64,000 bases of DNA from Devosia sp. 67-54 (lineage in GTDB: Bacteria > Pseudomonadota > Alphaproteobacteria > Rhizobiales > Devosiaceae), in the NCBI RefSeq assembly GCF_001899075.1, contig NZ_MKVA01000003.1, forward strand, positions 124,001 to 188,000. Direction: 5' to 3'. The notes beneath the pieces were generated by a model that saw nothing but the letters and a program-made list of their open reading frames with translations, made no database searches and was not told the origin of the DNA. Numbering within the stretch: the stretch's first letter is position 1; each line of letters starts with the position of its first letter. Below, in pieces: positions 48,495-64,000 of the stretch. A program made the translations under genes and the position numbers.

Positions 48495-49438
48495 GCGTTC
48501 GCTCCGCGCGGCTGGTTGAGCAGGATCGCGACGATCACGATCACGCCCTTGATGAACTGCTGCACGAAAGCGGAGACGCCGAGCAGGTTGAGGACGTTGG
48601 AAATCACCGCCAGCATCAGCACGCCTGCCAGCGAGCGCCAAATGCTGCCGCGGCCGCCCGAAAGCAATGTGCCGCCGAGCACCACCGCCACGATGGCATC
48701 GAGTTCGAGCCCGTTGCCGGCAAGCGGGTAGCCGGTGCCCAGCCGCCCTGCCAGCAGCACGCCGGCCAGTGCCGCGGTGGCGCCGGAAATGACGAAGACC
48801 GCCAGCCGGATGCGCTCGACATTGATGCCGGCGCGCCGGGCGCTTTCGGGATTCCCGCCCGCCGCCACGAGGTGATAGCCGAACCGCGAGCGGGCAAACA
48901 GGAAATGCGCGCCGACCGCCAGCCCCATCAGCAGAATGGCGATCCACGGAATGCCGAAGATGTCGCCATTGGCGAGGATGGAGAGCGGTTCGGAGGTGCG
49001 GCCCACGCTCTTGTCGGTGAACGAGAAGATGGCGCCCTGCAAGACTGACAGCATCCCGAAGGTAAGGATCAGTGGGTGGAGCCGCAGCGTGTTGAGGAGC
49101 ACCCCGTTGAGCAGGCCGATGCCGGCCCCCACCAGGATCATGAGCGCGACCACGGGAAGCGTCAGCACCGCATTGCCATTGAGCAGCACCGAGCTCAGCA
49201 CCACCACCAGCCCGGCAATCATGCCGATGGAGAGATCGATCATCCCCGCGACGATGACGAAGGTCTGGCCGATGGCGAGGATGCCAAGCACGCCGGCCTG
49301 TCGGAAGAGGTTGGCGAAATTGGCCGGATCGCGGAAGGCAGGGATGGTCAGCGCTGCGATGATCACCGTCGCCGCCAGCAGCAGGAAGATGCCGTCGCGG
49401 TCGAGGGCGAGCCGTCGCGGCGCGCGGACTACAGCCAT
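48491..49438 (-). CDS. sugar-type ABC transporter permease (first)
   Basis: 315 residues, RbsC-like: TFVIVAGMIDLSIGMIAGLVV, GLLNGVLLNTLRLHPLILTFG and AVVLGGTLLSGGRGSIWRSL. Its start lies ten bases inside the preceding hydrolase gene. Confidence 0.93.
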   Translation of the reverse strand: MAVVRAPRRLALDRDGIFLLLAATVIIAALTIPAFRDPANFANLFRQAGVLGILAIGQTFVIVAGMIDLSIGMIAGLVVVLSSVLLNGNAVLTLPVVALMILVGAGIGLLNGVLLNTLRLHPLILTFGMLSVLQGAIFSFTDKSVGRTSEPLSILANGDIFGIPWIAILLMGLAVGAHFLFARSRFGYHLVAAGGNPESARRAGINVERIRLAVFVISGATAALAGVLLAGRLGTGYPLAGNGLELDAIVAVVLGGTLLSGGRGSIWRSLAGVLMLAVISNVLNLLGVSAFVQQFIKGVIVIVAILLNQPRGANA

Positions 49439-50076
49439 GAAATCACCGTCTCTGCATCGGCCACCCAGCCGAACTTCATGGCAAAGTTCTTGAGCGTCGC
49501 TGCGTGAAGGTCGGGGGCGAAGGACGAGACGGCGTCGGCCACCAACGTGGTGCGGTAGCCGCGGTCGAAACCGCCCCGCGCCGTTTCGTCGACGCAGATC
49601 TGGGTGACCGTGCCGGTCACCACCAGCGAGGTGACGCCGAGCGTGCGCAAATGCCCGTCAAGGTCGGTGCCGTGGAATGCGCCGTAGCTGTACTTCTCGA
49701 TGCGCAGGTCGCCGGGCTCCGGCTGCAACTCGGCAATGACCTCGGTGCAGTCGAGCTCGCCTTGGGCGTCGTCGTAGCGCCGCCGGAAGCCCTTCCAGCA
49801 GCACATCGTGTCGGGCCGGCACTGCGGCGACCACAGCCAGAGAAGGTTGTCCGTCTCGCGCGCCAGGAACTGGGTGAAGATCACCGGGCGGCCGCGGCTG
49901 CGAAACTCGGCGATAAGGCGCTGCTGCGCGGCGATCGTGCCGCGGGCGTCGGGCACTTCCAGCGGCGCGCCGACGCGGACGAAATCGTTCTGCATGTCCA
50001 CGACGACGAGCGCCGGCTGCTCGACGCGCGCGGCCGGCCCGACTTCCGCCGCTGTTGCAGGAAAACGCACCACCAA
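49429..50076 (-). CDS. isochorismatase-family cysteine hydrolase
   Basis: 215 residues. Catalytic triad of the family: D27 (ALVVVDMQNDFV), K128 (LRIEKYSYGAFHGTDLD) and C161 (TGTVTQICVDETARGGFDRGY). Related enzymes are N-carbamoylsarcosine amidase, ureidoacrylate amidase, nicotinamidase and biuret hydrolase. First gene of the minus operon; its presence with a C-N hydrolase and CUT2 transporter suggests use of a carbamoylated or amide compound. Confidence 0.92.
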   Translation of the reverse strand: MVVRFPATAAEVGPAARVEQPALVVVDMQNDFVRVGAPLEVPDARGTIAAQQRLIAEFRSRGRPVIFTQFLARETDNLLWLWSPQCRPDTMCCWKGFRRRYDDAQGELDCTEVIAELQPEPGDLRIEKYSYGAFHGTDLDGHLRTLGVTSLVVTGTVTQICVDETARGGFDRGYRTTLVADAVSSFAPDLHAATLKNFAMKFGWVADAETVISWL

Positions 50077-50133
50077 CCCCCACTTCTTGCAGCGATCGAC
50101 GCCGAAACTTGTAGGGGAGTGTGGGGCGCGTTA

Positions 50134-50150
50134 TGTCTTGAGTCAAGACA
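50134..50150. promoter_or_regulatory. 17-bp perfect palindrome in the divergent promoter region
   Basis: TGTCTTGA-G-TCAAGACA, a perfect inverted repeat around a single G, between the isochorismatase-type gene (minus) and the TetR gene (plus). It is adjacent to but different from the TetR-type operator at 50154-50168, so it may bind a second regulator. Confidence 0.6.
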
Positions 50151-50153
50151 ATC

Positions 50154-50168
50154 CAACTGGTTGGTTGA
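50154..50168. promoter_or_regulatory. putative TetR operator 1
   Basis: CAACTGGTTGGTTGA, six bases before the TetR ATG. It matches 12 of 15 positions of CAACCGGATAGTTGA at 50845-50859 in front of the next operon. Located so that binding could repress the TetR gene and perhaps the divergent transporter operon. Confidence 0.65.
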
Positions 50169-50173
50169 GATTC

Positions 50174-50818
50174 ATGAAAGCTGTCGACAAGGATCCCGCG
50201 GCAGCGGACGGCACCAAGGGAGTGCTGCTTCGCGCGGCGCGCGCCGCCTTCGCTGAAGGCGGCCTCGAAGGCGCGCGGGTTGACGACATCGCGCGGCGTG
50301 CCGGCATCAACAAGCAGTTGCTGTATCACTATTTCGGCAGCAAGGACGGGCTCTACACGGCGGTGCTCGAGCAGGTCTACCGCGAGATCCGCGAGCAGGA
50401 GGCCGCCCTGGCGCTCGACGCGCTGCCGGCCGAGGAGGCGATGCGCAAGCTCGTCGAGTTCTCTTTCGACTACCTGCAGAAATTCCCGGATTTCGTGCGC
50501 ATCCTGGCCGATGAGAACGCCCACCACGGCCGGCACATGCAGGCCTCCCGGACGGTTGAGCAGATGAACCGGCCGATTATCGAGCTCATGCGCAAGACCC
50601 TGGAGCGGGGCGCCGGGGAGGGCGTGTTCCGCCGTGGCCTCGATCCGCTGCACGTCTACCTCTCGATCGCCGGCATGAGCTTCTTCTTTTTCGCCAATGT
50701 CCACACGCTGAGCCGGGCATTCAACCGCCCGCTGGGCACGCCCGCGGCCATCGAGGAGCGCCGCGCGCACATTACCGATTTTGCGCTCAACGCCATCCGC
50801 CGCCGCAGTTCGGCTTGA
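50174..50818 (+). CDS. TetR-family transcriptional regulator
   Basis: 214 residues. N-terminal TetR helix-turn-helix (LLRAARAAFAEGGLEGARVD then DIARRAGINKQLLYHYFGSKDGLY), followed by a ligand-binding helical domain resembling TetR_C_6-type (FVRILADENAHHGRHM, YLSIAGMSFFFFANVHTL). Probably a repressor released by the substrate or product of the neighbouring transporter and catabolic genes. ATG at 50174. Confidence 0.92.
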   Translation: MKAVDKDPAAADGTKGVLLRAARAAFAEGGLEGARVDDIARRAGINKQLLYHYFGSKDGLYTAVLEQVYREIREQEAALALDALPAEEAMRKLVEFSFDYLQKFPDFVRILADENAHHGRHMQASRTVEQMNRPIIELMRKTLERGAGEGVFRRGLDPLHVYLSIAGMSFFFFANVHTLSRAFNRPLGTPAAIEERRAHITDFALNAIRRRSSA

Positions 50819-50860
50819 CAACTCCCTGCCGCTGACCCGAATATCAACCGGATAGTTGAT
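50815..50860 (+). promoter_or_regulatory. promoter with TetR operator 2
   Basis: TTGACA (50815-50820, overlapping the TetR stop) and GAATAT (50839-50844) spaced 18 bases form a plausible promoter. ATCAAC-N6-GTTGAT (50843-50860) is a perfect 6-bp inverted repeat overlapping the -10 and start site, the normal place for a repressor. GGGGAGGAG just after it serves as ribosome site for the epimerase gene. Confidence 0.7.
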
Positions 50861-50877
50861 CCGGGGAGGAGACGTGG

Positions 50878-51894
50878 ATGGAAGCCGGCTTCGCCGACAT
50901 CGAGGCGCTGGAGGAGCGGCTTTCGCGCCCGGATGCAGACGTGGTTGCCGACCTCGCCGAGCTCGATGGCGATATCCTGGTCCTTGGCGCCACCGGCAAG
51001 ATCGGCCCGAGCCTCACCCGGATGGCGCGTCGCGCCGCCCCAGGCAAGCAAGTCATTGCCGTGGCTCGCTTTTCGGATCCGTCGCTGATCGACCAGTTCC
51101 GGCAGCAGGGGATCGACACGATCCAGTGCGACCTGCTCGACCCGGTGGCGGTGGCGGCCCTTCCGGCCGTCAGGAACGTCATTCTGATGACTGGCTATAA
51201 ATTCGGCGCGACCGGCGATCCGGCTCGCACCTGGGCGGTCAACACCTTGCTGCCGGCGCGGGTCGCGAGCACCCTCGGCGAGCGCCGGCTGGTCGCCTTC
51301 TCAACCGGCTGCGTTTATCCGTTCGTGTCGGTCAATTCGAACGGGGCCACGGAAGACTTCCCGCTCACTCCGCCCGGCGAGTATGCCAACAGCTGTGTCG
51401 GCCGCGAGCGGTCGGTGGAGTGGGAGGCGAGGCGCAACGGCACTGCGGCGCTGATGTTCCGGCTCAACTATGCGATCGACTGCCGCTATGGCGTGCTGTT
51501 CGATATCGCCTCGAAGGTGCTGGCGAACCAGCCGGTCGACGTGTCGACGGGCTACGTCAACGTCATCTGGCAGGGCGATTCCAACGCCATGACCCTGCGG
51601 GCGCTGCGTCACGTCGGCACGCCGGCCGTGCCGCTCAATGTCACCGGGCCGGAAACGCTCTCGGTGCGCTGGCTGGCGCAACAGTTCGGCGAGCGGCTGG
51701 GCCGGACGCCCAGCTTCGCCGGCGAGGAAGCGCCCACGGCATGGCTCAACAATGCGGCCAGGGCCTTCGGGCTGTTCGGCTACCCCAAGGTGGCGCTGGC
51801 ACAGATGCTGGACTGGGTTGCCGATTGGGTGGCGCGCGACATGCCGGCGCTCGGCAAGCCCACCGGCTTCGAGGTTCGAGATGGAGCCTATTGA
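50878..51894 (+). CDS. NAD-dependent epimerase/dehydratase-like protein
   Basis: 338 residues. Rossmann nucleotide motif GATGKIG at residues 37-43 ([15 protein letters not shown]), then strand-helix repeats with TGCVYPF and a substrate domain. The usual SDR catalytic Y-x3-K reads Y169-A-N-S-C173, so the lysine is missing, as is common in divergent members. It heads a three-gene operon with the acetyltransferase and DapA-like genes; function probably in the breakdown of the transported compound. Confidence 0.8.
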
Positions 51895-52699
51895 GGGCGA
51901 GCTCGCCCTGATCCCGCTCACGCTCGACGACATCGACGACGGCATGGCGCTGGTGACGGAAGCCGGCTGGAACCAGACGCCGGCGGACTGGCGCTTCATG
52001 CTCACCGCCGGTCGCGGGATGGGCCTGCGGGGCGATGCGGGCCGGGTGGTGGCAACCAGCATCGTGCTGCCCTATCGGCCGAGGGTGGGCTGGATCGGGA
52101 TGGTCCTTGTCGCGGGTGGGTATCGGAAGCGCGGCATTGCCACTCGGCTGCTCCGGGCTGCGATCGAGCACTGCCGCCGCCAGCAACTGACCCCGATGCT
52201 CGATGCCACGCCGGCCGGGCGTGAGGTGTATCGGCGGCTGAGCTTTGCGGGCGGCGAGACGATCGAGCGCTGGCGCGGCGCGGGCGCCGGGGCAGGGGAG
52301 CCGGCCGGGCCGGTGGACGTCGACCTCGCTGCCCGGATGGATCGTGACGCCTTCGGCGCCGACCGCCGGAACCTGCTCGCGGACCTTGCGATGCGAGCCG
52401 GCGCACCGCTGTTCCAGCGGCACGGCAGCGTATTGCTGGGCCGCCGCGGCCGCACGGCGACGCAATTGGGACCGCTGCTGTCGCATGATGAAGCTGCGGC
52501 GCTGGCGCTCTGCGAACGCGCCGTCGGCGCCATCGCCGGACCCTTGCTGATCGACGTCCCGGTGCGCGAAGAGGCGCTGCGCGGGTTGCTCGCTTCGCGC
52601 GGCTTCGGCGTTGAGCGTTCCTTCACGCGCATGAGCCTTGGGATAGCCGCTCCGATGGGCGAAGCCATGCGGGCCATCGCCGGCCCCGAACTGGGATAG
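51881..52699 (+). CDS. GNAT acetyltransferase with Acetyltransf_18-like C-terminal domain
   Basis: 272 residues. Residues 1-140 are a GNAT domain ([55 protein letters not shown]). Residues 145-272 form a second GNAT-like half ([40 protein letters not shown]). This tandem form occurs beside catabolic operons. Its start lies 14 bases inside the epimerase gene. Confidence 0.85.
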
Positions 52700-52704
52700 A
52701 ACTG

Positions 52705-53748
52705 ATGCACTGGTCCGAGATTCCCGCCGAAATCCTCGCCGCTTTCCGCGACGGTACCGTCATTCCTGCCCACCCGCTGGCCCTCGGTGCCGAGCGCAGA
52801 CTGGACGTGCGCCGCCAGCGCGCCTTGGCCCGCTACTACATCGATGCCGGAGCCGGTGGCCTCGCGGTCGGCGTGCACACCACGCAGTTCGCCATCCGCG
52901 ACGCCGGCCTCTACCGGCCGGTGCTGGAAACGGCGGCAGAGACGGCGTCGGAGTGGACCGACCGGCCGCTGATGCTGATCGCCGGTGCTGTGGGCAGGAC
53001 CGCGCAGGCGGTCGAGGAAGCGAGGACTGCGCGGAGCCTGGGCTATCACGCCGTGCTGCTCAGCCTCGCCGCGCTCAAGGGGGCGAGCGAGGACGAGTTG
53101 ATCGAGCATTGCCGGACGGTGGCGCGGGAAATGCCGCTGATCGGCTTCTACCTGCAGCCTGCGGTGGGCGGCGCCCGGCTGCCCATGAGCTTCTGGCAGC
53201 GCTTTGGGGCCATCGACAACGTCATCGGCATCAAGGCCGCGCCGTTCAACCGCTATGCGACGCTGGACGTCGTGCACGGCGTTGCCGCATCGGGCGCCGG
53301 CGACCGGATCACGCTCTACACCGGCAACGACGACCACATCGTGCTCGACCTGATCCTGCCCTTCGCCACGCCGCAGGGGGAGATGCGCTTTGCCGGCGGC
53401 CTGCTCGGCCACTGGTCGGTGTGGACGCAGAAGGCCGTCGAACTGCTCGAGCGCTGCAAGGCTGCCCGGGGGCAAAGCGCGATCTCGGTCGATCTGCTGC
53501 GTCTCGACAGCGCCGTGACCGACAGCAACGCCGCCTTCTTCGACGTCGCCAACAACTTTCACGGCGTCATTGCCGGTTGCCACGAGGTGCTGCGCCGGCA
53601 GGGACTGCTCGAAGGGCGCTGGTGCCTCGATCCGCACGAGGATCTCAGCCCCGGTCAGGCCGAAGCGATCGATCGCGTGTATCGGCTCTATCCCGACCTC
53701 AACGACGACGCATTCGTTACTGCCAATTTGGAACGCTGGTTGGCCTGA
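52705..53748 (+). CDS. dihydrodipicolinate synthase/N-acetylneuraminate lyase family protein
   Basis: 347 residues, TIM-barrel class I aldolase family. K177 in IGIKAAPFNRY is the likely Schiff-base lysine and Y149 (GFYLQP) the partner tyrosine. It is longer than DapA (about 290) with a C-terminal helical extension. Such paralogues cleave or dehydrate keto-sugar acids. As third gene after an epimerase and acetyltransferase it probably performs an aldol or retro-aldol step on the imported compound. Confidence 0.88.
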   Translation: MHWSEIPAEILAAFRDGTVIPAHPLALGAERRLDVRRQRALARYYIDAGAGGLAVGVHTTQFAIRDAGLYRPVLETAAETASEWTDRPLMLIAGAVGRTAQAVEEARTARSLGYHAVLLSLAALKGASEDELIEHCRTVAREMPLIGFYLQPAVGGARLPMSFWQRFGAIDNVIGIKAAPFNRYATLDVVHGVAASGAGDRITLYTGNDDHIVLDLILPFATPQGEMRFAGGLLGHWSVWTQKAVELLERCKAARGQSAISVDLLRLDSAVTDSNAAFFDVANNFHGVIAGCHEVLRRQGLLEGRWCLDPHEDLSPGQAEAIDRVYRLYPDLNDDAFVTANLERWLA

Positions 53749-54046
53749 TTGCAGCTGCCTGGCGACGGCTTCCAGGCCCCTCGCCGGCGGCGCCACTCCT
53801 TGTTGGTCACTGCTTCTTGGAATCAACAGCAGGCAACCGACGTCGCTCTCTGCCGCCAAAGACCGAAAGCCCAACGGCATCTAGTTTGGCGATGCTATCC
53901 GGGCACCGATCGATACAGCGCCGTCAGCGAAATCGTCATCTGTTGACAGTTGGCAATTATTATGCCCCATTCACTGTCGAATGTCGGAGGCTGGCTGCCG
54001 GTCGGGTCTCCGCAAAGGGCTGAACCAATGACCAGGGAGGTGCTCC
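53749..54046. other. gap before the solitary binding-protein gene
   Basis: 298 bases without a supported gene. It contains the regulon site at 53939-53950 and an AT-rich stretch (CAATTATTATG, 53954-53964) suitable for a promoter. AGGGAGGT just before ATG 54047 is the ribosome site of the binding protein. Nothing else recognised. Confidence 0.55.
53939..53950 (+). promoter_or_regulatory. regulon site 1 (TCTGTTGACAGT)
   Basis: Eleven of twelve bases match ACTGTTGACAGT. It lies about 97 bases before the binding-protein start, just upstream of TATTAT (53958-53963), which may be the -10. Part of a set of four such sites in the 54-63 kb region. Confidence 0.65.
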
Positions 54047-55558
54047 ATGTCTTATGTGGGTAAACTGAGGGGCGTGGCCGCCGTGGCCATGCTGGCGTCG
54101 GTGTCGCTGCTCGCGGGGTCGGCAGTTGCCGTCGCGGCGCCGACAGAGCTGACGATCGCGCTGTCGGGCGATATTCCGACACTCGATCCGAGCAAGGATA
54201 CCTCGCCGATCGGTCTCAATTACCGCCTGAACGTCTTCGAGGCACTGACGCAACTCGACCGCGATGGCAAGGTGCAGCCGCAACTGGCCGAAAGCTGGAC
54301 CCACAGCGACGACTGGACCGAATGGACCTTCAAGCTCCGGCCTGGCGTCAAGTTTCACGACGGCTCGGCGATGACGGCCGCCGACGTGGTGTTCACCATA
54401 GATCATGTGCTGGCGGACAAAACCTCGCCCGTGCGTACCTTCATGCGTCTCGTCAAGTCGGCCGAGGCGGTCGATGACCACACGGTCAAGTTCACCCTGA
54501 CGCAGGGCTATGCCACCTTCGATCGCCAGGCAAAATATCTCTACATCATGTCCAAGGCCTACTACGACAAGGCTGGCGATACCGGCTACGCGTCCAAGCC
54601 GATCGGCACCGGCCCCTACCGCCTGACCGAATGGGTCAAGGACGACCACATGACCCTCGAAGCCTTCCCCGACTACTGGGGCGGCGAGCCTGCCATCAAG
54701 AAGGGCATCTTCCACCCGATCCCGTCCGATTCCGCACGCGCCAACGCCCTGCTCTCGGGCGAGGTGGATCTCGTTCCCAGCCTGCCGCCAAGCCTGATGG
54801 ACATGCTGAAGGGGAATGCCGGCCTGAAGGTCGCGACCGCGCCGGGCTACCGTGTGGCCTTCATGGAAATGGATCCGACCCGGGCTCCCTTCGACAAGCC
54901 GCAGATCCGGCAGGCCGTGGATGTCGGTATCGATCGCGTCGCCATCTCCGACCGTCTGCTGCGCGGCACCGCCAAGGCTTCGGGTATCATCGTTCCACCC
55001 TCCAACGTCGGCTACGATGCCTCGCTGACGCCGACTCCGTACGATCCGGCGCTCGCCAAGAAGCTCGTGCAGGAATCGGGCTACGACGGCACCGTCTTCA
55101 AGCTGGACTATCCGAACAACAATTTCCCCATGGCAAATGAGGTGGCCCAGGCCATCGCCAGCTACATGACTGACGCCGGCCTCAAGGTTGAGCTCAATCC
55201 CATGGAGTTCACCGCGTTTTTCCCGGCATGGGTTCAGAACAAGGTGAGCCCAGTGTACTACTTCGCCTACGGCTCGTCGCAGTTCACCGCGGAATCGGTG
55301 CTCTCGACCCTCTATGAAACCGGCGGCTCGCCCGCAGGCCATCACACCGATCCGCAGATCGACACCATCATGAAGGCGGAGCGCGCCGAGCAGGATCCCG
55401 CCAAGAAGCAGGCGCTGATCACTCAGGCTCTGCGCCTTGGCAACCAGGATCGGCAGATCCTGCCGCTCTACGAGATGCTGCAGGTCTACGGCGCCAAAGC
55501 CGACATCGACTACGTCCCGTACCCGGACGAAATTGTGCGCCTCGCCACTTTCAAATAG
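54047..55558 (+). CDS. solitary ABC transporter substrate-binding protein (peptide/SBP_bac_5 type)
   Basis: 503 residues. Signal peptide (LRGVAAVAMLASVSLLAGSA, cleavage near AVA-AP), then a type II SBP_bac_5 fold: LTIALSGDIPTLDPSKDTSP, WTFKLRPGVKFHDGSAMTAADV, IGTGPYRLTEWVKDD, GEVDLVPSLPPSL. Such proteins bind di/oligopeptides, nickel or small aromatic/opine-like ligands. No permease or ATPase genes follow; two terminators do. It must use a transporter encoded elsewhere, or the rest of its operon was lost. Confidence 0.92.
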   Translation: MSYVGKLRGVAAVAMLASVSLLAGSAVAVAAPTELTIALSGDIPTLDPSKDTSPIGLNYRLNVFEALTQLDRDGKVQPQLAESWTHSDDWTEWTFKLRPGVKFHDGSAMTAADVVFTIDHVLADKTSPVRTFMRLVKSAEAVDDHTVKFTLTQGYATFDRQAKYLYIMSKAYYDKAGDTGYASKPIGTGPYRLTEWVKDDHMTLEAFPDYWGGEPAIKKGIFHPIPSDSARANALLSGEVDLVPSLPPSLMDMLKGNAGLKVATAPGYRVAFMEMDPTRAPFDKPQIRQAVDVGIDRVAISDRLLRGTAKASGIIVPPSNVGYDASLTPTPYDPALAKKLVQESGYDGTVFKLDYPNNNFPMANEVAQAIASYMTDAGLKVELNPMEFTAFFPAWVQNKVSPVYYFAYGSSQFTAESVLSTLYETGGSPAGHHTDPQIDTIMKAERAEQDPAKKQALITQALRLGNQDRQILPLYEMLQVYGAKADIDYVPYPDEIVRLATFK

Positions 55559-55565
55559 AACCTTC

Positions 55566-55590
55566 GCGGGCCGGGAAACCGGCCCGCTTT
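55566..55590 (+). terminator. intrinsic terminator after the binding-protein gene
   Basis: Perfect 9-bp stem GCGGGCCGG-GAAA-CCGGCCCGC with a GNRA tetraloop, followed by TTTAGCCTTT, eight bases after the stop codon. Confidence 0.85.
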
Positions 55591-55629
55591 AGCCTTTAGC
55601 CTCCCCGGCTCACATCCAATCCGCAAGCG

Positions 55630-55664
55630 GCCCCGCTCACGAGTCCACGAGTGGGGCTTTTTTT
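55630..55664 (+). terminator. second intrinsic terminator
   Basis: Stem GCCCCGCTC (55630-55638) with GAGTGGGGC (55649-55657), one G-T pair, followed by a run of seven T. It backs up the first terminator and shields the convergent oxidase gene. Confidence 0.8.
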
Positions 55665-55674
55665 GTTGACAGCT
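55663..55674 (+). promoter_or_regulatory. regulon site 2 (TTTGTTGACAGC)
   Basis: Nine of twelve bases match ACTGTTGACAGT, including TGTTGACAG. It directly follows the second terminator and has no gene start downstream on the plus strand, where the convergent oxidase ends. It may be a remnant of a lost promoter. Confidence 0.4.
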
Positions 55675-55720
55675 ATGCCAAAGCAAAGGCCCGGCCATGA
55701 CTGGCTCGTAGTCCGCCGCC

Positions 55721-57298
55721 TCAACTGGCGATGCTGAAGAGATTACCGGGGCTCATAATGTCCATTGGATCGAACTGCGTCTTCAGCCGCTCAAGCACAG
55801 CACGCATGGAAGGAGAACGAGTCTCCATATAGGGGTACTTCCGTCCGATCTGCATGTGCACGCCGCCCAATCCGCGCCACTCCGCCAGAATTTCGCCCGC
55901 CAACACCTTGAGACGCTCCCGGGCGGCCGGATTGTCTCCGCGCGGCCGCAGCGCTGCTCTTTGGGCATCGTTCATGAAGTGCAGGTGGATCGGCAGCGGC
56001 GCATCCGCCCAGCGTATCAGCGTTTCCACGCCGATGCCCGACGGCCCATGGGTCGACAGCAGATAGCCATGCGAGATGCCGAATTGCTTGAGCGAGTCTG
56101 CGTTACGCTGAAAGACTGCCTCGGTTCGGGCGAAGCACACCTTGCCGAGCGAATTCGGCACCACCGTGTGGAGCCACGCCATGCGCTTACCTGAGGGAGT
56201 TAGCAGACCTGACATGGTAGGGAACGGCATCGATCGCATGACGCGTGGAATCGAGGCAGGGATTTCGCGTCCGCCTGCGTTGCGGGCGATGCTGGATATG
56301 CGCCTCCGCCTGCGCTCGGCGTCGTGGCGGTCGGCGCCCTCAACGATGCAGTTCATTAGGTACCCGATATTGCGCGCGAAGCGCCGCCCGTGAAAGGCGA
56401 TCAGCGCTGCATCGCGCAGGCCGGCCGTGAGGCTGGAAGCGTCGCGAACCATTTGGACCAGCGTCTTCAGGTCGGAGGCGAGTCCTTCGCTCTGCATGCG
56501 CGATTGAGCCGAGAACGGATCCATGCCGAGGCATTCCGAAGCGAGCATCTCGGCACCGATCTGTGCCATGGCGCCCATCTGGGCTTCGGGATCATCAAAT
56601 GAAAAAGACGCAAAGGCCACTCCTGCAGCCGCAGGAATGAGCTGGAGCGTGATTGCGGTCTTGATGCCGAAGGCGCCGCAATCGCCGAGAAACAGGCCGG
56701 TCACGTCGGGGCCGTAATTGCGGAAGAATGGACCTGTGTTTTCGCCCGACGCCGACCCCGTCTGCAGCACCTCGCCAACGCCGGTGACGACGCGCAAGCC
56801 GAGGACGGATTCCGCGGAGCTGCCGCGGGAGGCCGAGCCGAAGAATTTGGCGCCCTGCGACACCGACGCACCGATCGTGGCGTGCAGGCCGGAAAACGTG
56901 CCCCAGAACGGTGTTGTTAGTTCCAGCGGGCGCAACGCATCCCGCAGCGCGGCCCAGGTCACCCCAGGCTCGACGGTCACATAGCGGTCGAAGGCATTGA
57001 TCTCGATGAGCCGATCGAGACCGGAAAGGTCCACGATGGCACAACCGGCGCGTGCCGGCAGATAACCAGCGCTATAGGAAAGTCCGCCGCCGCGGCTATA
57101 AAGGCCGGCGCCGGTCTCACGTGCCTGCCGGACCAAGGCAAGGACATCAGCTTCGTTGCGCGGCCGGAAAACGGCGATCGGCCGATGTTCGGCCTCGTAG
57201 TAGACGTCGCTGCTGTAGAGCTCCAGATCGTCGGTGACCTTGGGAACGTCCGGCAGTGCTGCCGCAAAGGCGGCTGCTACATCAGCACTGTTGGTCAT
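55721..57298 (-). CDS. FAD-linked oxidase (vanillyl-alcohol-oxidase/4-cresol-dehydrogenase type)
   Basis: 525 residues. The FAD_binding_4 domain covers roughly 30-230 (GLYSRGGGLSYSAGYLPARAG, VEPGVTWAALRDALRP, TIGASVSQGAKFFGSASRGS). The C-terminal substrate domain ends in QFDPMDIMSPGNLFSIAS. This resembles VAO/PCMH-family enzymes that oxidise 4-alkylphenols or other alcohols and amines. Last gene of the three-gene minus operon. Confidence 0.87.
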   Translation of the reverse strand: MTNSADVAAAFAAALPDVPKVTDDLELYSSDVYYEAEHRPIAVFRPRNEADVLALVRQARETGAGLYSRGGGLSYSAGYLPARAGCAIVDLSGLDRLIEINAFDRYVTVEPGVTWAALRDALRPLELTTPFWGTFSGLHATIGASVSQGAKFFGSASRGSSAESVLGLRVVTGVGEVLQTGSASGENTGPFFRNYGPDVTGLFLGDCGAFGIKTAITLQLIPAAAGVAFASFSFDDPEAQMGAMAQIGAEMLASECLGMDPFSAQSRMQSEGLASDLKTLVQMVRDASSLTAGLRDAALIAFHGRRFARNIGYLMNCIVEGADRHDAERRRRRISSIARNAGGREIPASIPRVMRSMPFPTMSGLLTPSGKRMAWLHTVVPNSLGKVCFARTEAVFQRNADSLKQFGISHGYLLSTHGPSGIGVETLIRWADAPLPIHLHFMNDAQRAALRPRGDNPAARERLKVLAGEILAEWRGLGGVHMQIGRKYPYMETRSPSMRAVLERLKTQFDPMDIMSPGNLFSIAS

Positions 57299-57375
57299 GA
57301 TGCGCTCCTGCCTCCCCGTCCGGGCTTGCGTGTTCCGTAGCCACGGCGACCACGCTGCTTCCCGTGCTGCAAATC

Positions 57376-58767
57376 CTATCTGAGGCTACGGCGCTGATAG
57401 CGGCCGTGCCCTTGCGTTGCAGCAACGATGGAGCCATCGCGATACACCTCGACACCGCGGACGAACGTGGTCATGACTCGTCCACGTAGCGGCACGTCCT
57501 CATAGATGCTGTAGCCGGCATCGCTGAAAAGATCGGCAGGCTTAAGGACGTAGTCGGCATCGAGGTCGACAAGCACGACGTCCGCGTCGAACCCCGGCTC
57601 TATCGCGCCTTTGCGACCCCACAGGCCCATGGCGCGCGCCGGCTTCTCGCACAGCATCGAGACGATCCGTTCGATCGTAACACCGCGCTTGCTGTGGCCT
57701 TCAGACAGCATGATCGGCAGCAGGGTTTCGAGACCCGGGCAGCCAGGCGATGCTTTCCAGATGCCACCTTCCTTGGACGCTGCGGTGCGATGCACGTGAT
57801 CGGAGGCGACGGTGTCGATATCTCCCGAGGCAATACCCCGCCATAGCGCTTCCCGGTCGGTTGGCTCCCGCAGCGGTGGATTGATCTTGCCGACTACGCC
57901 TCGCTTCCAGGTGACGTCATGCGTCAAATAGTGCGGACAGGTCTCGATGGTGATGTCGACACCGCGCCGTCGCGCATCGATGGCGGCGTCCAGCGCTTCG
58001 CCCGAGGATGTGTGCACCACATAGATCGGCGATCCAGCCGCGCGGCAAAGCCGCGCGGCGCGCTGGATCGCGTCCGCCTCCACGAAAGGCGGACGGGTGG
58101 CATTCCAGGAGGCGAGGCCGCCGGTTCCTTCCGGGTCGGCGGCCATCACCTTGTCACGCAACGAATGAACGACTTCGATATTCTCGGGGTGTGGGCATAC
58201 CATGCCACCATGAGCGGCGCAGGCTTCTGCGAGCCGATAGAGAAAGGCATCGTCGATATCGGGCAGACCGAGCCGCTTGCCTTCGCCGCCGCGATTGTTC
58301 ATGAATATCTTGAAGCTGGGCACCCCGAGCTCGTCGACATATTGCGGCACTCGGGCAAGTTGCGCTTCCGTCGAGATGATAAGGTGATAGCCGAAATCGA
58401 CGTGACTGCCCTGCTCAGTGATCGCGCAGACTTCCTCGAAAATCTCGGAATGCTCCTGTGGCGACAGGATATAGGGCACGATCGTAGTCACGCCACCGCT
58501 CGCCGCCGCGGCGGTTTCGCTTGCCGCGTCCGAAGCGGCACGCGGAAACGAGATGTCGTTGCCATGACCCAGATGCACATGCACGTCGAGCGCGCCGGGC
58601 ATCACAAGTTTGCCGGTTGCGTCGACTAGCCGACGCGCCTCGGCCGGGGTACCCGGCACCATGATGGCAGCGATCTTGCCGTCCTGGATGGCGATGTCGA
58701 GCGCTACCGGCGGCATGCCCGCACGGGCTACGTTACCGCCGCGAATGACGAGATCGAACATCTTCAA
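57376..58767 (-). CDS. cyclic amidohydrolase (dihydropyrimidinase/allantoinase-like)
   Basis: 463 residues. Metal ligands H63 and H65 in GALDVHVHLGHG, the carboxylated-lysine candidate K153 (PSFKIFMNNRGG), His in YVVHTSSGEA and ETCPHYLTHD, and the catalytic Asp in TVASDHVHRT. It hydrolyses a cyclic amide or imide (hydantoin, dihydropyrimidine, allantoin or similar). The NNR after the lysine is unlike the usual dihydropyrimidinase loop, so the substrate may be unusual. Confidence 0.92.
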   Translation of the reverse strand: MKMFDLVIRGGNVARAGMPPVALDIAIQDGKIAAIMVPGTPAEARRLVDATGKLVMPGALDVHVHLGHGNDISFPRAASDAASETAAAASGGVTTIVPYILSPQEHSEIFEEVCAITEQGSHVDFGYHLIISTEAQLARVPQYVDELGVPSFKIFMNNRGGEGKRLGLPDIDDAFLYRLAEACAAHGGMVCPHPENIEVVHSLRDKVMAADPEGTGGLASWNATRPPFVEADAIQRAARLCRAAGSPIYVVHTSSGEALDAAIDARRRGVDITIETCPHYLTHDVTWKRGVVGKINPPLREPTDREALWRGIASGDIDTVASDHVHRTAASKEGGIWKASPGCPGLETLLPIMLSEGHSKRGVTIERIVSMLCEKPARAMGLWGRKGAIEPGFDADVVLVDLDADYVLKPADLFSDAGYSIYEDVPLRGRVMTTFVRGVEVYRDGSIVAATQGHGRYQRRSLR

Positions 58768-58788
58768 ACTTCCTGAAACGACGCATGC

Positions 58789-59652
58789 TCATCTGTAGGA
58801 TTTCTCTTGCGTGTCGAATTCGCCCTTCCGCACGGCATTCTGCCGCATCTCAAAACTCGCCAGCGCGTCCTTTATGGCTTCGAGAGAGCCTGTGCGGCGC
58901 AGCTCGCCGAGCACGTTGTAGACCGACAACAGCGCGGCCTGCAGCGCGGCATTTGCAAAGAGCGCCGCGCCAAACTGCATGTCCTTGAGGCCGGCGTGGT
59001 CGACCGGCGGCGTCTTGCCGCCGAAAACATAATTGAACACCTGCGGCACCGGCAATTCGCGGGCAATGCGCGCGATGTCATCTACGTTCAGAGGAGCCTC
59101 GACGAAGGTTACATCCGCTCCCGCCTCGATGTAGCGATGGGCGCGCTCGAGCGCGTCTTCGAGACCATTGACCGCGATCGCGTCGGTACGCGCGACGATC
59201 TGGAAATCGTCATCGCGCCGGGCGTCGGCGGCCGCCTTGATCTTCTGCACCATCTCTTCGGTCGGGATGACGCCTTTGCCATTGAAGTGGCCGCACTTCT
59301 TGGGAAAGACTTGGTCCTCGATCTGAATGCCCGCCGCGCCGGCGCATTCGTAGGCCCTGACGGTACGATAGGTATTCACCGGGTTGCCGAAGCCGGTGTC
59401 GCCGTCCGCGAGCAGAGGGATGTCGACAGATTCCGCAATCGCGGCGATATGCTGCACCATCTCGCTCATCGTCACCAGACCGATATCCGGCGCGCCCAGA
59501 TACATGTTGGTGACGCCCGCGCCGGTGACATAGGCGCACTCGTAACCCAGTTCCTGAATCACGTTGGCGAACAGCGCGTTGGGCGTCCCGGGCATCAACA
59601 CGGCATGGCGGCGGGCCAAGAGGCTCTTGAGCTGTGCAGCGGGTCTACTCAA
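58789..59652 (-). CDS. isocitrate lyase/PEP mutase superfamily protein
   Basis: 287 residues. Mg site D83/D85 (LLADGDTGFGN) and E112 (GIQIEDQVFP), with the lyase loop K118-K-C120-G-H (PKKCGHFNGKGV). The catalytic cysteine marks it as a lyase (methylisocitrate, 2,3-dimethylmalate or similar) rather than a mutase. The start is TTG at 59652: AAGGAG stands seven bases upstream. The nearest ATG (59656) is out of frame and stops after three codons. First gene of the minus operon. Confidence 0.9.
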   Translation of the reverse strand: MSRPAAQLKSLLARRHAVLMPGTPNALFANVIQELGYECAYVTGAGVTNMYLGAPDIGLVTMSEMVQHIAAIAESVDIPLLADGDTGFGNPVNTYRTVRAYECAGAAGIQIEDQVFPKKCGHFNGKGVIPTEEMVQKIKAAADARRDDDFQIVARTDAIAVNGLEDALERAHRYIEAGADVTFVEAPLNVDDIARIARELPVPQVFNYVFGGKTPPVDHAGLKDMQFGAALFANAALQAALLSVYNVLGELRRTGSLEAIKDALASFEMRQNAVRKGEFDTQEKSYR

Positions 59653-59725
59653 GCATGGTCTCCTTGGTCGGTATGGTCGGCCGTTGGGATTGTGGGATCC
59701 GGCCGCCTTAGGGGGTGCTGGACAT

Positions 59726-59758
59726 ATTCTCGGTTGTATGTTGTAAACTGTCAACAGT
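59726..59758 (-). promoter_or_regulatory. regulon site 3 with minus-strand promoter
   Basis: On the minus strand ACTGTTGACAGT (59758-59747) contains TTGACA, and 17 bases later GAGAAT (59731-59726) can serve as -10, giving a leader of about 65 bases to the lyase start. The site lies 20 bases before the divergent hydrolase-fold gene (ATG 59779), so one bound regulator could control both directions. Confidence 0.75.
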
Positions 59759-59778
59759 GCTGCTGATAGCTCTGCCGC

Positions 59779-61482
59779 ATGCCGACCTTCTCTCCAGAGG
59801 AAATCTTCTTGGATCCAGCTCTTCACGGGAACGGCGCGCCGCCGATAGCCGACGCGGCGGCGACGAGTGTGCACAAGGGGTTCGTCGAAGTCGATGGTTT
59901 GCGTCTGCACTATGTGAGGCGTGGACGCGGCCCAGCAATCGTCATGCTGCACGCCAGCCCATGCTCGGCCAAGGTCATGGCGCCGCTGCAATCCCTGTGG
60001 GGTGACGAATTCACCACCATTGCCTTCGACCTGCCGGGCTTTGGCCTGTCGCAACCGCCTGAAACAGGCGAGATCACCATCCCGCGCCTGGCCGACATCA
60101 TCGCTGCCGGCATGCGCGCGCTAGGCCTTGCCAACGCCGCTCTTTACGGTCGGCATACTGGCGCCAGCGTCTGCCTCGAAATCGCGCTGCGTTGTCCCGA
60201 CCTGGCCGCCATGCTGCTGACCGACGGCTTGCCTGTCTTTGCCGCGCCCTACACCGAAGAGCGCCTGCGCGAATATCTGCCGCCCATCGAGACGCGCTGG
60301 GATGGGGGGCATCTCACCTGGGCATTTTTCCGCTATCGCGAACAGCACATGTTCTGGCCGTGGAACAGCGCCGATCTCACGCACCGGGCCGACACCGACC
60401 TGCCTGATATCGACTTCCTGCATCGTGGCACTGTCGAGCTGCTCGAGGCTGCGTCCACCTATGCAAGGGTCTATCGCTCGGCGTTTCTGCACGAGACGCT
60501 GCCTCGCATTGGGGAGTTGTGCATCCCGGCTTATTTCGGCAACCGGCCGGGCGACAGCCAGTACAAGACCATTCCTCGCTATCCGCCCGGAGCGGCAGTG
60601 CACGTCATGCCGCGCGATCACGACTTGGCGGCACTGGAGGAATTGGCGCTGTTGCGGCGGCATCCGGCCTCGAGCACCGCGCCGCCCCATATCAGCCGCT
60701 TCGCGCAGCGGCCGCTGCCCGACCGACTGCGCGACTACATTACCACCCGCCATGGCGATGTGGGAGCAATCGGCTGTGGTCTCGCGAAGCCGGGCGTCCC
60801 CCTGCTTTATCTTCACGATATTCCCGGTGGCATAAGCCTGCACGAGGCCGAGATCACCACGCTGTCGCAAGCTCGCCCGGTTGTGGCAATCGAACTGGCC
60901 GGCAACGGTGAGTCGGATGCGCGACAGGCACCAGATATCCAAGTCTGGCTCGATCAGATCGCCGATGTTCTGGCGCTGCTCGGCTGGAGTGTCATCGAAG
61001 TCTACGCCCACGGAACGTCGGCGGCGTTGGCGCTGGCTTTGGCAGCACGACATCCTGCTTGCGTCTCCGGCATTGTCTTGCGCTCGCCACCTATTCTCGA
61101 TGCCGGAGCCCGACAGCGCTTGGTGACCCGCTACGCCCCCGATATCTCGCCGTCCGAGGATGGCAGTTATCTGCTCAGGCTCTGGCACCATCTGCGTGAC
61201 CAGGAATTGTGGTGGCCATGGTTTGAGCGCACCCACGAAGCGCGCAAGGCGACCGAGCCACGCATCGATCCCGATCTGCTGCACCGAAAGGCGGTGACGC
61301 TGCTCAAGCAACCTCGCCTGTACGCTGCGCTCTGGCAGGAAGTTCTGTCGCACGACTTGCCGGCAGCTCTGGGCCGCGCCAGCGTTCCCGTGCAAATCGT
61401 GGTCGAGCCTACAGACACTTTTGCCGGCATTGCCGCGCACCACATGGCGTGCCGCACGCAAGGAGCCGGTACGAGCGGTTGA
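59779..61482 (+). CDS. tandem alpha/beta-hydrolase-fold protein with altered nucleophile elbows
   Basis: 567 residues, two consecutive alpha/beta-hydrolase domains (about 30-300 and 320-560). Domain 1 has the oxyanion strand IVMLHASPCSAKVM, FDLPGFGLSQPP and LYGRHTGASVCLE, in which His126 occupies the nucleophile position of G-x-S-x-G. Domain 2 has LLYLHDIPGG, IELAGNGESD and VYAHGTSAALA, with Gly412 at the nucleophile position. It may therefore be a lyase, binding protein or cofactor-independent enzyme rather than a serine esterase. No strong Shine-Dalgarno precedes the ATG. Confidence 0.85.
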   Translation: MPTFSPEEIFLDPALHGNGAPPIADAAATSVHKGFVEVDGLRLHYVRRGRGPAIVMLHASPCSAKVMAPLQSLWGDEFTTIAFDLPGFGLSQPPETGEITIPRLADIIAAGMRALGLANAALYGRHTGASVCLEIALRCPDLAAMLLTDGLPVFAAPYTEERLREYLPPIETRWDGGHLTWAFFRYREQHMFWPWNSADLTHRADTDLPDIDFLHRGTVELLEAASTYARVYRSAFLHETLPRIGELCIPAYFGNRPGDSQYKTIPRYPPGAAVHVMPRDHDLAALEELALLRRHPASSTAPPHISRFAQRPLPDRLRDYITTRHGDVGAIGCGLAKPGVPLLYLHDIPGGISLHEAEITTLSQARPVVAIELAGNGESDARQAPDIQVWLDQIADVLALLGWSVIEVYAHGTSAALALALAARHPACVSGIVLRSPPILDAGARQRLVTRYAPDISPSEDGSYLLRLWHHLRDQELWWPWFERTHEARKATEPRIDPDLLHRKAVTLLKQPRLYAALWQEVLSHDLPAALGRASVPVQIVVEPTDTFAGIAAHHMACRTQGAGTSG

Positions 61483-61527
61483 GCTCCGGCCGACGCCAGA
61501 CTCGAAGATCAAGACTGGAGATTCTCG

Positions 61528-62907
61528 ATGCCCGCTGATGTCCCCATCTACACTCTGCCCGACATTCAGCGCCAACCGCTCAACGCGGTACGAGCGTTAC
61601 AGAACGACCTGCTGCGGCAGATGGTGGCGCTTTGCTATGAGCACCATCCGTTCTACTCCATGCGAATGCGGGAACTCGGGCTGACGCCGGACGATATTTC
61701 GACCGTCGACGATCTGAAGAAGCTGCCGCCTTCATCCAAGTCCGATTTTCTCGCCGACCCGGAAGCGTTCCGGCTGCGTCCCGAAGGCCTGCCAGTGGCG
61801 GAGGGAACGCTATGGAAGATCATCTACACCACCGGCACGACATCGGGGCGCCCGGCGCCGATCTTCGTTACGGCGCATGATCATTTCGCCTACCAGGATC
61901 TGTTCCGGACGCGGCAGGAGCTGATCGGGCTCAAGAATACGGACCTCATTGCCAATCTGTTCCCCATGACGTCTTTCCCTCTTGGTGCCTATTCGCGTGG
62001 GCCAGACGAAGCGGCGGCGGTGGGAGCGGCGATGCTGGTGACCAATACCGGTCGCGTCGACAGCTACTACCCGGTCAATCGCAGCGTCGATGAGGCGGTC
62101 GCGGCCATTGCGCGACACCGCGCCACGGTCCTTTGGGGCGTTGCCGGTTTCGTGCGGCGCATCCTGCTCAGGGCCGCCGAAACCGGCGCCGAATTCACGT
62201 CGGTTCGCATGGTGATGACGACCGGCGAGGCTGCCTCTCCCGCCATGCGCGACGACCTGCGCCAGCGCATGCGCGACCTCCGTTGCGCCGATACTGTGAT
62301 CGTCAACCGCTATGGTTCGACCGAGCAGGGCGGCACGATGATCGAATGCCGCGATGGCTCGGGCTTTCACAGTTCGATGCCCGACCAGGTGTTCCATGAG
62401 ATCGTTGACGACGAAACGGGCGAAAGGCTGGCGGATGGGCAAAACGGCATGCTGGCCATCACCCATCTCAATCGGCGCGGCACGGTGTTTCTGCGCTACA
62501 AGCTTGGAGACATGGGCGCGCTTGACCACGCACAATGCCCCTATTGCGGCCGCACCTCGGTTCGCCTCTCGTCAAAGCCGGTGCGAATAGGCGACATTAT
62601 CAAGATCAAGGGCGCGCTGGTGAACCTCGCCAACCTCAAGGTTGAACTCGACAAGATCGGCCAGCTCGATGAATATCAGATCGTGGTGACATCCGAATCC
62701 GAGGCTGATCCATTCTCGCCCGACGTCCTGCTGGTGCGGCTCGCTCCCGCTACGGGCGCCAATGAGACCATCGGCGACGATATCGCGTCTCTGGTGACGC
62801 AACTGACGAACTTGCGGCCACGCATCGAGATCACCCGACGCGACGCCATCTACGACCCTGTCACCATGGCGAAGCCTAAGCGTATCGTGGATGTTCGCAG
62901 GCGGTAG
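61528..62907 (+). CDS. phenylacetate--CoA ligase-like adenylate-forming enzyme
   Basis: 459 residues. The AMP-binding loop is IIYTTGTTSGRPAPIF. Later motifs: VNRYGSTEQGG, FLRYKLGDMG, CPYCGRT, and the C-terminal AMP-dependent synthetase domain with KIKGALVNLANLKVEL. It resembles PaaK, which activates aryl acids to aryl-CoA. A Cys pair in CPYC may bind metal. It suggests the cluster converts its substrate to a carboxylate that enters CoA-dependent breakdown. Confidence 0.9.
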   Translation: MPADVPIYTLPDIQRQPLNAVRALQNDLLRQMVALCYEHHPFYSMRMRELGLTPDDISTVDDLKKLPPSSKSDFLADPEAFRLRPEGLPVAEGTLWKIIYTTGTTSGRPAPIFVTAHDHFAYQDLFRTRQELIGLKNTDLIANLFPMTSFPLGAYSRGPDEAAAVGAAMLVTNTGRVDSYYPVNRSVDEAVAAIARHRATVLWGVAGFVRRILLRAAETGAEFTSVRMVMTTGEAASPAMRDDLRQRMRDLRCADTVIVNRYGSTEQGGTMIECRDGSGFHSSMPDQVFHEIVDDETGERLADGQNGMLAITHLNRRGTVFLRYKLGDMGALDHAQCPYCGRTSVRLSSKPVRIGDIIKIKGALVNLANLKVELDKIGQLDEYQIVVTSESEADPFSPDVLLVRLAPATGANETIGDDIASLVTQLTNLRPRIEITRRDAIYDPVTMAKPKRIVDVRRR

Positions 62908-62941
62908 TTCCAGGCCATCTGCTGGCCTCGAAAGATCGTTA

Positions 62942-62974
62942 ACTGTTGACAGTACGCCTGTGCGTTTTTAGGCT
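62942..62974 (+). promoter_or_regulatory. regulon site 4 with internal promoter
   Basis: ACTGTTGACAGT (62942-62953), identical to site 3. TTGACA (62946-62951) and TAGGCT (62969-62974), 17 bases apart, make a promoter for the amidohydrolase gene, whose ribosome site AGGAGG follows at 62984-62989. Confidence 0.72.
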
Positions 62975-62995: not shown

Positions 62996-63898
62996 GTGGC
63001 CAAGACCGATTACCCGTTTAATGCAAACGCGACCAAAGACGGCTATGGAGCCGTCGACATCGTGGTGAATTTCTATACGCCACAGGTGATCGCCGAGAGG
63101 CGCGTGCCCACCGATGAGAATTTCCGCGACCAGGTCCGCATGGCTGATGATCATCGTCGCGGGCTAACGCCGGAACAGTATATCGAGAAGATGGATCGCG
63201 CCGGCATCGAGCGCTCCTTGCTGATCGCTGCGCGGTGTGGCGATCGCCGGATGAGCACCTCGACCGAGATTCCTTATTCCTACATCTACGAGACCTGCCA
63301 GCAATATCCTCACCGCTACTCTGGTGTCGCCGGCATCAATCCGCTGCTGGGCATTGCCGGGCTTAAGGAGCTGGACCATGCGGTGAAGGATTACGGATTC
63401 GTCGCTGCGCATCTGTATCCACATTGGTTCGGCCAGGCGCCCGATGCCGCGATCTATTACCCCTACTATGCCCGCTGCGCGGAGCTGGGCATTCCGATCA
63501 TGATGCAGGTTGGTCATTGCCTGATCTACAGATCCGACAATCGCCTCGCGACCGTCGCCAAGCCGATCACGCTCGATCGTATCGCCATTGATTTCCCCGA
63601 GCTGACCATTGTCGGGATTCATCTGGGCTATCCCTGGACCGAGGAAATGATCTCGGTGGCAACCAAGCATAAGAATGTCTACATGGCCGGCGATGCCTAT
63701 GCTCCGAAGCATTGGGGGCAGTCGGCGGTCCATTTTGCCAATACGTTCGGGCAGGACAAGTTCATGTTCGGCACCGACTGGTGGGTTATCGATCCCGAAC
63801 GGGCGGTAAAGGACGTCGATGAGCTTGAGTTCCGCGCTCATTCTAAGCGCAAGATCATGCGCGACAATGCGATGCGCGTCTTTAGCCTGCCGGGCTAG
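62996..63898 (+). CDS. amidohydrolase-2 family protein
   Basis: 300 residues. The TIM-barrel features KDYGFVAAHLYPHWFG, MMQVGH (H174), IVGIHLGYPW (H209) and MFGTDWW (D261) match amidohydrolase family 2 (decarboxylases and lactonases). The first-strand HxH motif is missing: D21-I-V-V-N-F stands where D-x-H-x-H is expected, so metal binding is altered. GTG start at 62996 is set by AGGAGG six bases upstream; the ATG at 62991 is in another frame and too close. Confidence 0.85.
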   Translation: MAKTDYPFNANATKDGYGAVDIVVNFYTPQVIAERRVPTDENFRDQVRMADDHRRGLTPEQYIEKMDRAGIERSLLIAARCGDRRMSTSTEIPYSYIYETCQQYPHRYSGVAGINPLLGIAGLKELDHAVKDYGFVAAHLYPHWFGQAPDAAIYYPYYARCAELGIPIMMQVGHCLIYRSDNRLATVAKPITLDRIAIDFPELTIVGIHLGYPWTEEMISVATKHKNVYMAGDAYAPKHWGQSAVHFANTFGQDKFMFGTDWWVIDPERAVKDVDELEFRAHSKRKIMRDNAMRVFSLPG

Positions 63899-64000
63899 AG
63901 GAGAAGTGTTGGCCGCCTCTTGGATCGCCGCCAAATCGCCGGTAAACAGTCAGCTACCGCTAGGACAAGGTGGGTGTCGGCGGAACCGAGGGCGAGTATG

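Follow-up and report, generated by a model that had tools for sequence, protein, structure and literature searches.

The 12-bp sequence ACTGTTGACAGT recurs in a catabolic-looking gene cluster of Devosia sp. 67-54, at the end of a 64,000-nucleotide stretch (the window, C3:124001-188000 of a 4.21-Mb genome; C numbers denote contigs). We propose, with a probability of roughly 0.87, that this site would be the operator of a GntR-family (FadR/FCD) regulator encoded from window position 63998 on. Copies of the site are clustered in the genome, conserved in relatives, found together with one clade of this regulator, and overlap promoters.

Allowing at most one mismatch, ACTGTTGACAGT was found at six places in the genome, compared with three for the same sequence read backwards. 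Five of the six fall within 14.3 kb (C3:177939-192232) spanning the window's end: three inside the window, at 53939, 59747, and 62942, and two past it, at window coordinates 64708 and 68221. With 0.01 site expected from the control rate, the Poisson probability of at least five sites in 14.3 kb is ~1e-12, a value that assumes independent sites, which these are not. The two exact copies and the 11/12 copy reported in the initial annotation were recovered at the positions given there, and its concern that the motif might be equally dense throughout the genome was not borne out. The predicted operators and two weaker matches are the following (ranks refer to a matrix built from relatives, described below):

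53939..53950, + strand: predicted operator TCTGTTGACAGT, one mismatch, 96 bp ahead of the start of the solute-binding protein (SBP) gene; matrix rank 1.
59747..59758, - strand: predicted operator ACTGTTGACAGT in the divergent region between the genes of a PEP mutase/methylisocitrate-lyase superfamily enzyme (PEPM, -) and an alpha/beta hydrolase (ABH, +); TTGACA points toward PEPM, with a -10-like GAGAAT 17 bp on; matrix rank 3.
62942..62953, + strand: predicted operator ACTGTTGACAGT, 42 bp ahead of the gene of an Amidohydrolase_2 family enzyme (AMH2); TTGACA-N17-TAGGCT; matrix rank 4.
64708-64719 (window coordinates, outside the window): predicted operator ahead of an isochorismatase-like gene (ISO).
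68221-68232 (window coordinates, outside the window): predicted operator between alcohol dehydrogenase and ABC permease genes.
55662..55673, + strand: TTTGTTGACAGC, fourth copy of the initial annotation, three mismatches; unsupported as an operator.
63939..63950, + strand: weak candidate autoregulatory site CCGGTAAACAGT, 47 bp ahead of the GntR start; matrix score 4.9, rank 17.

The initial annotation had counted four copies as beyond chance. The clustering is real, and the fourth, 9/12 copy exists, one position away from where it had been placed (55662-55673, not 55663), but it is at noise level and was dropped as an operator. It sits where two convergent genes meet, between their stop codons (SBP, ending at 55558, and an FAD-linked oxidase, ending at 55721), and its matrix rank of 10 (score 8.0) is within the range of shuffled sequence. 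At up to three mismatches, the window holds 22 matches to ACTGTTGACAGT versus 15.5 expected, and 22 was reached by 9 of 100 shuffles; a lone 9/12 match therefore means little. The sole genome site outside the cluster, C9:278775, was treated as chance: its flanks are unlike those of the other sites and its target gene is not clear. It is not among the four best matrix matches of its 18-kb stretch, in a matrix that punishes rare flanking letters hard.

The site is also conserved ahead of homologous genes in other genera, a check that the initial annotation had proposed. A scan of genome contigs, of which the best 80 of at least 594 pattern stretches were taken, gave 78 loci (L numbers); more close relatives may exist, because the scan was confined to these 80. 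In 22 of the loci (L029-L050) the encoded regulator is a close relative of ours (52-86% identity), while those of the other 56 are at most 37% identical. The looser palindrome ACTGTNNACAGT occurs, at up to one mismatch, 54 times in the 22 close loci (374 kb) versus 4.7 times in 50-bp block shuffles; the 56 remote-paralog loci (1.04 Mb) hold 6 such matches. Despite a rearranged gene order, the sites track homologs of PEPM, ISO, AMH2, ABH, SBP, and a hydantoinase/allantoinase-like cyclic amidohydrolase (HYD). A site accompanies the PEPM(-)/ABH(+) arrangement in L029-L031 and HYD(-)/PEPM(+) in L045, L046, and L048; two sites accompany AMH2(-)/PEPM(+) in L032, L034, and L036 and PEPM(-)/GntR(+) in L038, L040, and L041. 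Genes in the relatives' loci were called by a simple script, and two long open reading frame (ORF) families by L038/L041, considered as hydantoinase A/B genes, were set aside as gene-calling artifacts, since they overlap one another and lack any Pfam match. In L035 and L037 the regulator gene is present in two copies within one locus.

We then surveyed the exact 12-mer in 151 genomes, our own and 150 relatives. Five genomes whose regulator is 85-100% identical hold 22 copies, and the other 146, of which 13 have a 40-51% regulator relative, hold 5; the backwards control has 16 copies across all 151. Nineteen of the 22 copies are at most 16 kb away from the regulator gene. Those far from it are ahead of a solute-binding protein 53% identical to that of the cluster (L134:6455), an ABC transporter operon (L135:6712), and a 361-amino-acid ORF (L137:7217), and these three positions, in two related genomes, are candidate remote members of the regulon. 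More sites (L136:11291 and 11578, L030:19187) were seen by an additional permease pair in Devosia relatives; no such genes are among those called in our own stretch. At L138:7685, in genome G061, the exact 12-mer precedes a gene that reads by eye as another GntR-type regulator, and this genome has no match to the close regulator at 1e-30.

A symmetrized 22-bp matrix was built from the 54 sites of relatives, with our own sites excluded. Over all positions of 104 kb, the five own sites took ranks 1 to 5 with scores of 18.1-28.1, compared with best scores of 8.8-14.0 in five block shuffles. This own-genome ranking alone is independent, because the relatives' sites were in the training set.

The initial annotation had guessed at a GntR-type repressor encoded outside the window. 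The type fits, but the gene begins inside the cluster, and the ATG of this 223-amino-acid GntR/FCD protein is the window's last three bases (63998-64000). An N-terminal GntR winged helix-turn-helix (PF00392, 49.1 bits) and a C-terminal FCD domain (PF07729, 84 bits), both over cut-off, give it the domain content of the FadR (FCD) subfamily of the GntR family. D136, D138, H140, H185, and H207 are invariant in the 13 aligned members of the 23. Such a set of Asp/His ligands, with a role in metal binding, is the signature of the FCD domain. The site ACTGT-NN-ACAGT fits the palindromic NyGT-Nx-ACNy operator form of the subfamily, as given in the available part of PMC4494728.

We next looked at the anatomy of 59 sites, our own five and the 54 of relatives, collected at up to one mismatch to the palindrome. 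The centre, which was not used in the selection, is TG or CA in 50 of the 59. With these 50 oriented so that TTGACA reads forward, the 12-bp core is preceded by A in 42 and trailed by T in 40, and weaker outer signals are seen at a distance of 7 bp from the main half-sites (38/50 have G at -4, 30/50 have C at +15). The pattern nAnnnT is found 17 bp past TTGACA in 22 of the 50, the next best of 39 spacings reaching 9, and it fits four of our five sites (PEPM, AMH2, ISO, and the 68221 site). As for placement, 29 sites are in divergent regions, 16 are one-sided, 3 lack a TG/CA centre, and 11 lack a modelled target. In 14 of the 16 one-sided cases, all of which have a TG or CA centre, TTGACA aims at the target gene. 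Seven divergent regions hold two sites; in five of them (L032, L034, L036, L040, and L041) each TTGACA aims at its own gene, and in L031 and L038 one site is without the TG/CA centre. TTGACA is present in most sites and is trailed at 17 bp by a weak -10-like signal, which makes it likely that the regulator represses by covering the -35 box.

From these features we infer binding by the GntR protein, repression, and induction by a carboxylic-acid intermediate. A regulator dimer would bind ACTGT-NN-ACAGT together with the weaker half-sites that lie 7 bp outward. Operator and promoter would be fused: the central TTGACA matches the -35 consensus and a weak -10-like signal follows 17 bp downstream, and the bound regulator would therefore exclude RNA polymerase. 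The repressor would thus silence uptake and breakdown genes until their compound appears. Between them, the five operators would control up to seven transcription units: SBP; lyase-hydantoinase-oxidase; the divergent alpha/beta hydrolase-CoA ligase; Amidohydrolase_2 with the regulator; the isochorismatase-like hydrolase; the alcohol/aldehyde dehydrogenases; and a divergent ABC transporter with an MBL hydrolase.

Other explanations have to be weighed against an operator of this repressor. That a short word clustered by chance is consistent with 9/12 matches being about as frequent as expected, and this account stands for the copy at 55662; for the five strong sites it is refuted to near certainty by the genome clustering, the enrichment in orthologous loci, the 151-genome survey, and the matrix ranking. 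The central TTGACA and the -10-like signal at 17 bp would also suit an account in which the copies are just strong sigma-70 promoters, their -35 box being at consensus, and no regulator acts. However, conservation extends to the arms beyond TTGACA, the flanking A/T, and the outer half-sites. The exact 12-mer goes with a single GntR clade, its frequency in the 146 related genomes being that of the control, and the two-site divergent regions are arranged as described above. We consider promoters without a regulator highly improbable.

The adjacency of a gene is no proof of binding, and the sites might belong to another regulator of the genome, the neighboring GntR being a bystander; around 50.1-50.8 kb there is a gene whose translation reads as TetR-like. 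Against this, in loci of at least six families the sites are found together with this GntR clade even though the other neighbors vary, and known GntR/FadR regulators have the same TGTNNACA core, which leaves a bystander very little probability. FCD regulators include both activators and repressors, and an activating or mixed action of the GntR protein is the least improbable of these alternatives. It is nevertheless unlikely: an operator lying right over the -35 box favors a repressor, and Pseudomonas PrpR, a GntR/FCD protein with a similar motif, represses according to the available part of PMC9765439.

Several observations weigh against the operator proposal. Related promoters are non-independent samples, and the conservation of the ten fixed bases arises partly by construction, from selection at up to one mismatch. 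The palindrome ACTGTNNACAGT at one mismatch is not enriched genome-wide (14 places versus 18 for the control); the genome-level signal is the TG/CA-centred form of the palindrome plus its clustering. The -10 signal is weak, with TATAAT matched in at least four of six letters at 17 bp by 6 of the 50 sites only, and our own 53939 site has no nAnnnT. Two of the 16 one-sided sites aim away from their target, and the 11 of 59 sites without a modelled target also count here. L043 is without a site at the one-mismatch threshold, and the single site of L050 lies ~4 kb from the regulator gene and has no modelled target. Our own regulator gene is preceded by the weak 63939 site only, whose score was equalled in 1% of 200 random 150-bp segments. 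Among the relatives, the highest-scoring position within 150 bp ahead of the regulator reaches 19-29 in L038-L042, L047, and L049, where the sites were in the training set, and stays below -6 in L032, L034, and L044. Finally, none of the ten cluster proteins scanned reaches an NCBIfam cut-off (the scan did not include the dehydrogenases, permeases, and ATPase), and the pathway rests on family names.

The nearest solved regulator is 7xp0 (E 6e-46), the sole PDB match under 1e-20, which is annotated as a probable transcriptional regulator and which we take to be PmiR. PrpR/PmiR (PA0797) represses the 2-methylcitrate operon in Pseudomonas; it is a GntR/FCD protein whose predicted motif, in the available part of PMC9765439, is ATTGTCGACAAT. 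This motif is also a 12-nucleotide palindrome and shares the TGTNNACA core with ours. However, ACTGTTGACAGT does not conform to it, differing in the second base (C instead of T) and in the centre (TG instead of CG). Furthermore, unlike the PrpR/PmiR system, our cluster includes hydantoinase-like and isochorismatase-like hydrolases. No PrpB over the TIGR02317 cut-off of 354.4 bits was found in the genome, which has two matches only, PEPM (262.5 bits; about 262.5-262.7 across searches) and another at 72.1 bits. Control of prpB(CD) is thus not indicated by the two TIGR02317 matches, prpC and prpD not having been searched for as such, and no PrpD-like gene was recognized among the called genes of the cluster. 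Because motif and gene set differ and PrpB is not found over cut-off, our protein is probably not a methylcitrate regulator.

By sequence and gene company it nevertheless looks PrpR-like. A tree of 58 regulators (our own, the 22 close relatives, 8 intermediate ones, and 27 of the 56 remote paralogs; no named PrpR was included) separated the first three groups from the remote paralogs with support of 97/96 and long-branch warnings. The 8 intermediate loci (L139-L146) were drawn from 13 intermediate relatives. A PEPM homolog above 120 bits is encoded in 16 of the 22 close loci, some of which are short, in 7 of the 8 intermediate loci, and in none of the 56 remote ones. Counted as gene clusters with one representative each named by Pfam, PrpF is present in 4, MmgE/PrpD in 2, TctA in 5, and TctC in 4 of the 8 intermediate loci, and an MmgE/PrpD-type gene in 4 close loci. 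One intermediate locus, L146, carries an exact ATTGTCGACAAT at 8189, 67 bp ahead of the aligned part of the regulator, whose gene start is unsure.

Within the FadR subfamily, the available part of PMC4494728 lists groups with a shorter, 2-nucleotide GT/AC distance (GntR, HpxS, HypR, MdcY, PrpR, and UxuR) and motifs with extra half-sites 7-12 nucleotides from the centre. Our system resembles these 2-nucleotide local regulons in palindrome type, FCD domain, outer half-sites, and sites in divergent promoters, but its motif and gene set are not among the regulons named in that part of the source.

The genes of the cluster within the window are the following:

54047..55558, + strand: SBP_bac_5 solute-binding protein, peptide-type (SBP); Pfam PF00496.
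55721..57298, - strand: FAD-linked oxidase (FAD_binding_4; GlcD-like); Pfam PF01565; GlcD/GlcE models below cut-off.
57376..58767, - strand: hydantoinase/allantoinase-like cyclic amidohydrolase (HYD); best NCBIfam matches allantoinase and dihydropyrimidinase/hydantoinase, all below cut-off among 25 listed of 61; best PDB match 1gkr, L-hydantoinase.
58789..59700, - strand: PEP mutase/methylisocitrate-lyase superfamily enzyme (PEPM), start codon assumed; Pfam PF13714; best PDB match 1zlp, petal death protein.
59779..61482, + strand: alpha/beta hydrolase with two hydrolase stretches (ABH); Pfam PF00561 in both.
61528..62907, + strand: PaaK-like AMP-binding CoA ligase; Pfam PF00501; PaaK models below cut-off.
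62996..63898, + strand: Amidohydrolase_2 family enzyme (AMH2); Pfam PF04909; no NCBIfam match.
63998..64000, + strand: start codon of the GntR/FCD regulator, whose gene continues outside the window (C3:187998-188669).

The order thus runs from SBP through the FAD oxidase, HYD, PEPM, the double ABH, the PaaK-like ligase, AMH2, and GntR to ISO, followed by aldehyde and alcohol dehydrogenases, two permeases, a double ATPase, and the MBL hydrolase; the dehydrogenases, permeases, and ATPase were named from their translations and not by family search.

Among the 22 close loci, homologs of ISO (17), PEPM (16), and HYD (14) are the most frequent, versus 7 each for ABH and AMH2. The ISO, PEPM, and HYD families suggest amide hydrolysis, carbon-carbon cleavage, and ring opening. 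More speculatively, HYD might open a cyclic imide, ureide, or lactam ring, the isochorismatase-like hydrolase might remove the amide, and the PEPM lyase might cleave the resulting hydroxy-di- or tricarboxylate, its substrate being the inducer. PDB matches for the ring-opening and amide-cleaving enzymes include N-carbamoylsarcosine amidohydrolase, RutB, and hydantoinases, the best being 3ot4/3uao, presumably maleamate amidohydrolase. The cluster thus has the enzyme families of these steps in common with maleamate amidohydrolase/N-carbamoylsarcosine amidase and hydantoinase pathways. It differs from them in its linked lyase, Amidohydrolase_2, CoA ligase, and double alpha/beta hydrolase, and no NCBIfam cut-off is reached.

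Tentatively, and with well under even confidence, we suggest that a PrpR-like GntR repressor clade and a PrpB-like carbon-carbon lyase have been taken, mainly in Alphaproteobacteria, into an undescribed catabolic route. There, hydantoinase-like ring opening, isochorismatase-family deamidation, and lyase cleavage would degrade a cyclic imide, ureide, or lactam, and the regulator would sense the lyase's hydroxy-polycarboxylate through an operator doubling as -35 box. The PrpF, MmgE/PrpD, TctA, and TctC genes nearby would fit an origin of the route in tricarboxylate metabolism. A literature search gave nothing usable on isonicotinate/citrazinate or cyclic-imide pathways as the substrate route and no paper linking GntR, isochorismatase, hydantoinase, and isocitrate lyase in one operon; ACTGTTGACAGT and its reverse complement returned only papers unrelated by title and abstract.

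Adjoining the cluster, window positions 47523-53748 hold a separate catabolic-looking gene set, named from translations only, with sugar-type ABC permeases, a second isochorismatase-like protein (49429-50076), and TetR-like, epimerase-like, and DHDPS-like genes. No palindrome at up to one mismatch occurs in this region.

Overall, the repeated site adds a new, well-supported case to a familiar class of gene switches. For this catabolic regulon, which has relatives in several families of Alphaproteobacteria, the analysis names a candidate regulator and a set of genes and supplies a matrix for the operator. Remote sites found in two of the related genomes indicate further transporters for the same compound, and the pairing of regulator and lyase hints at where the inducer may be sought.

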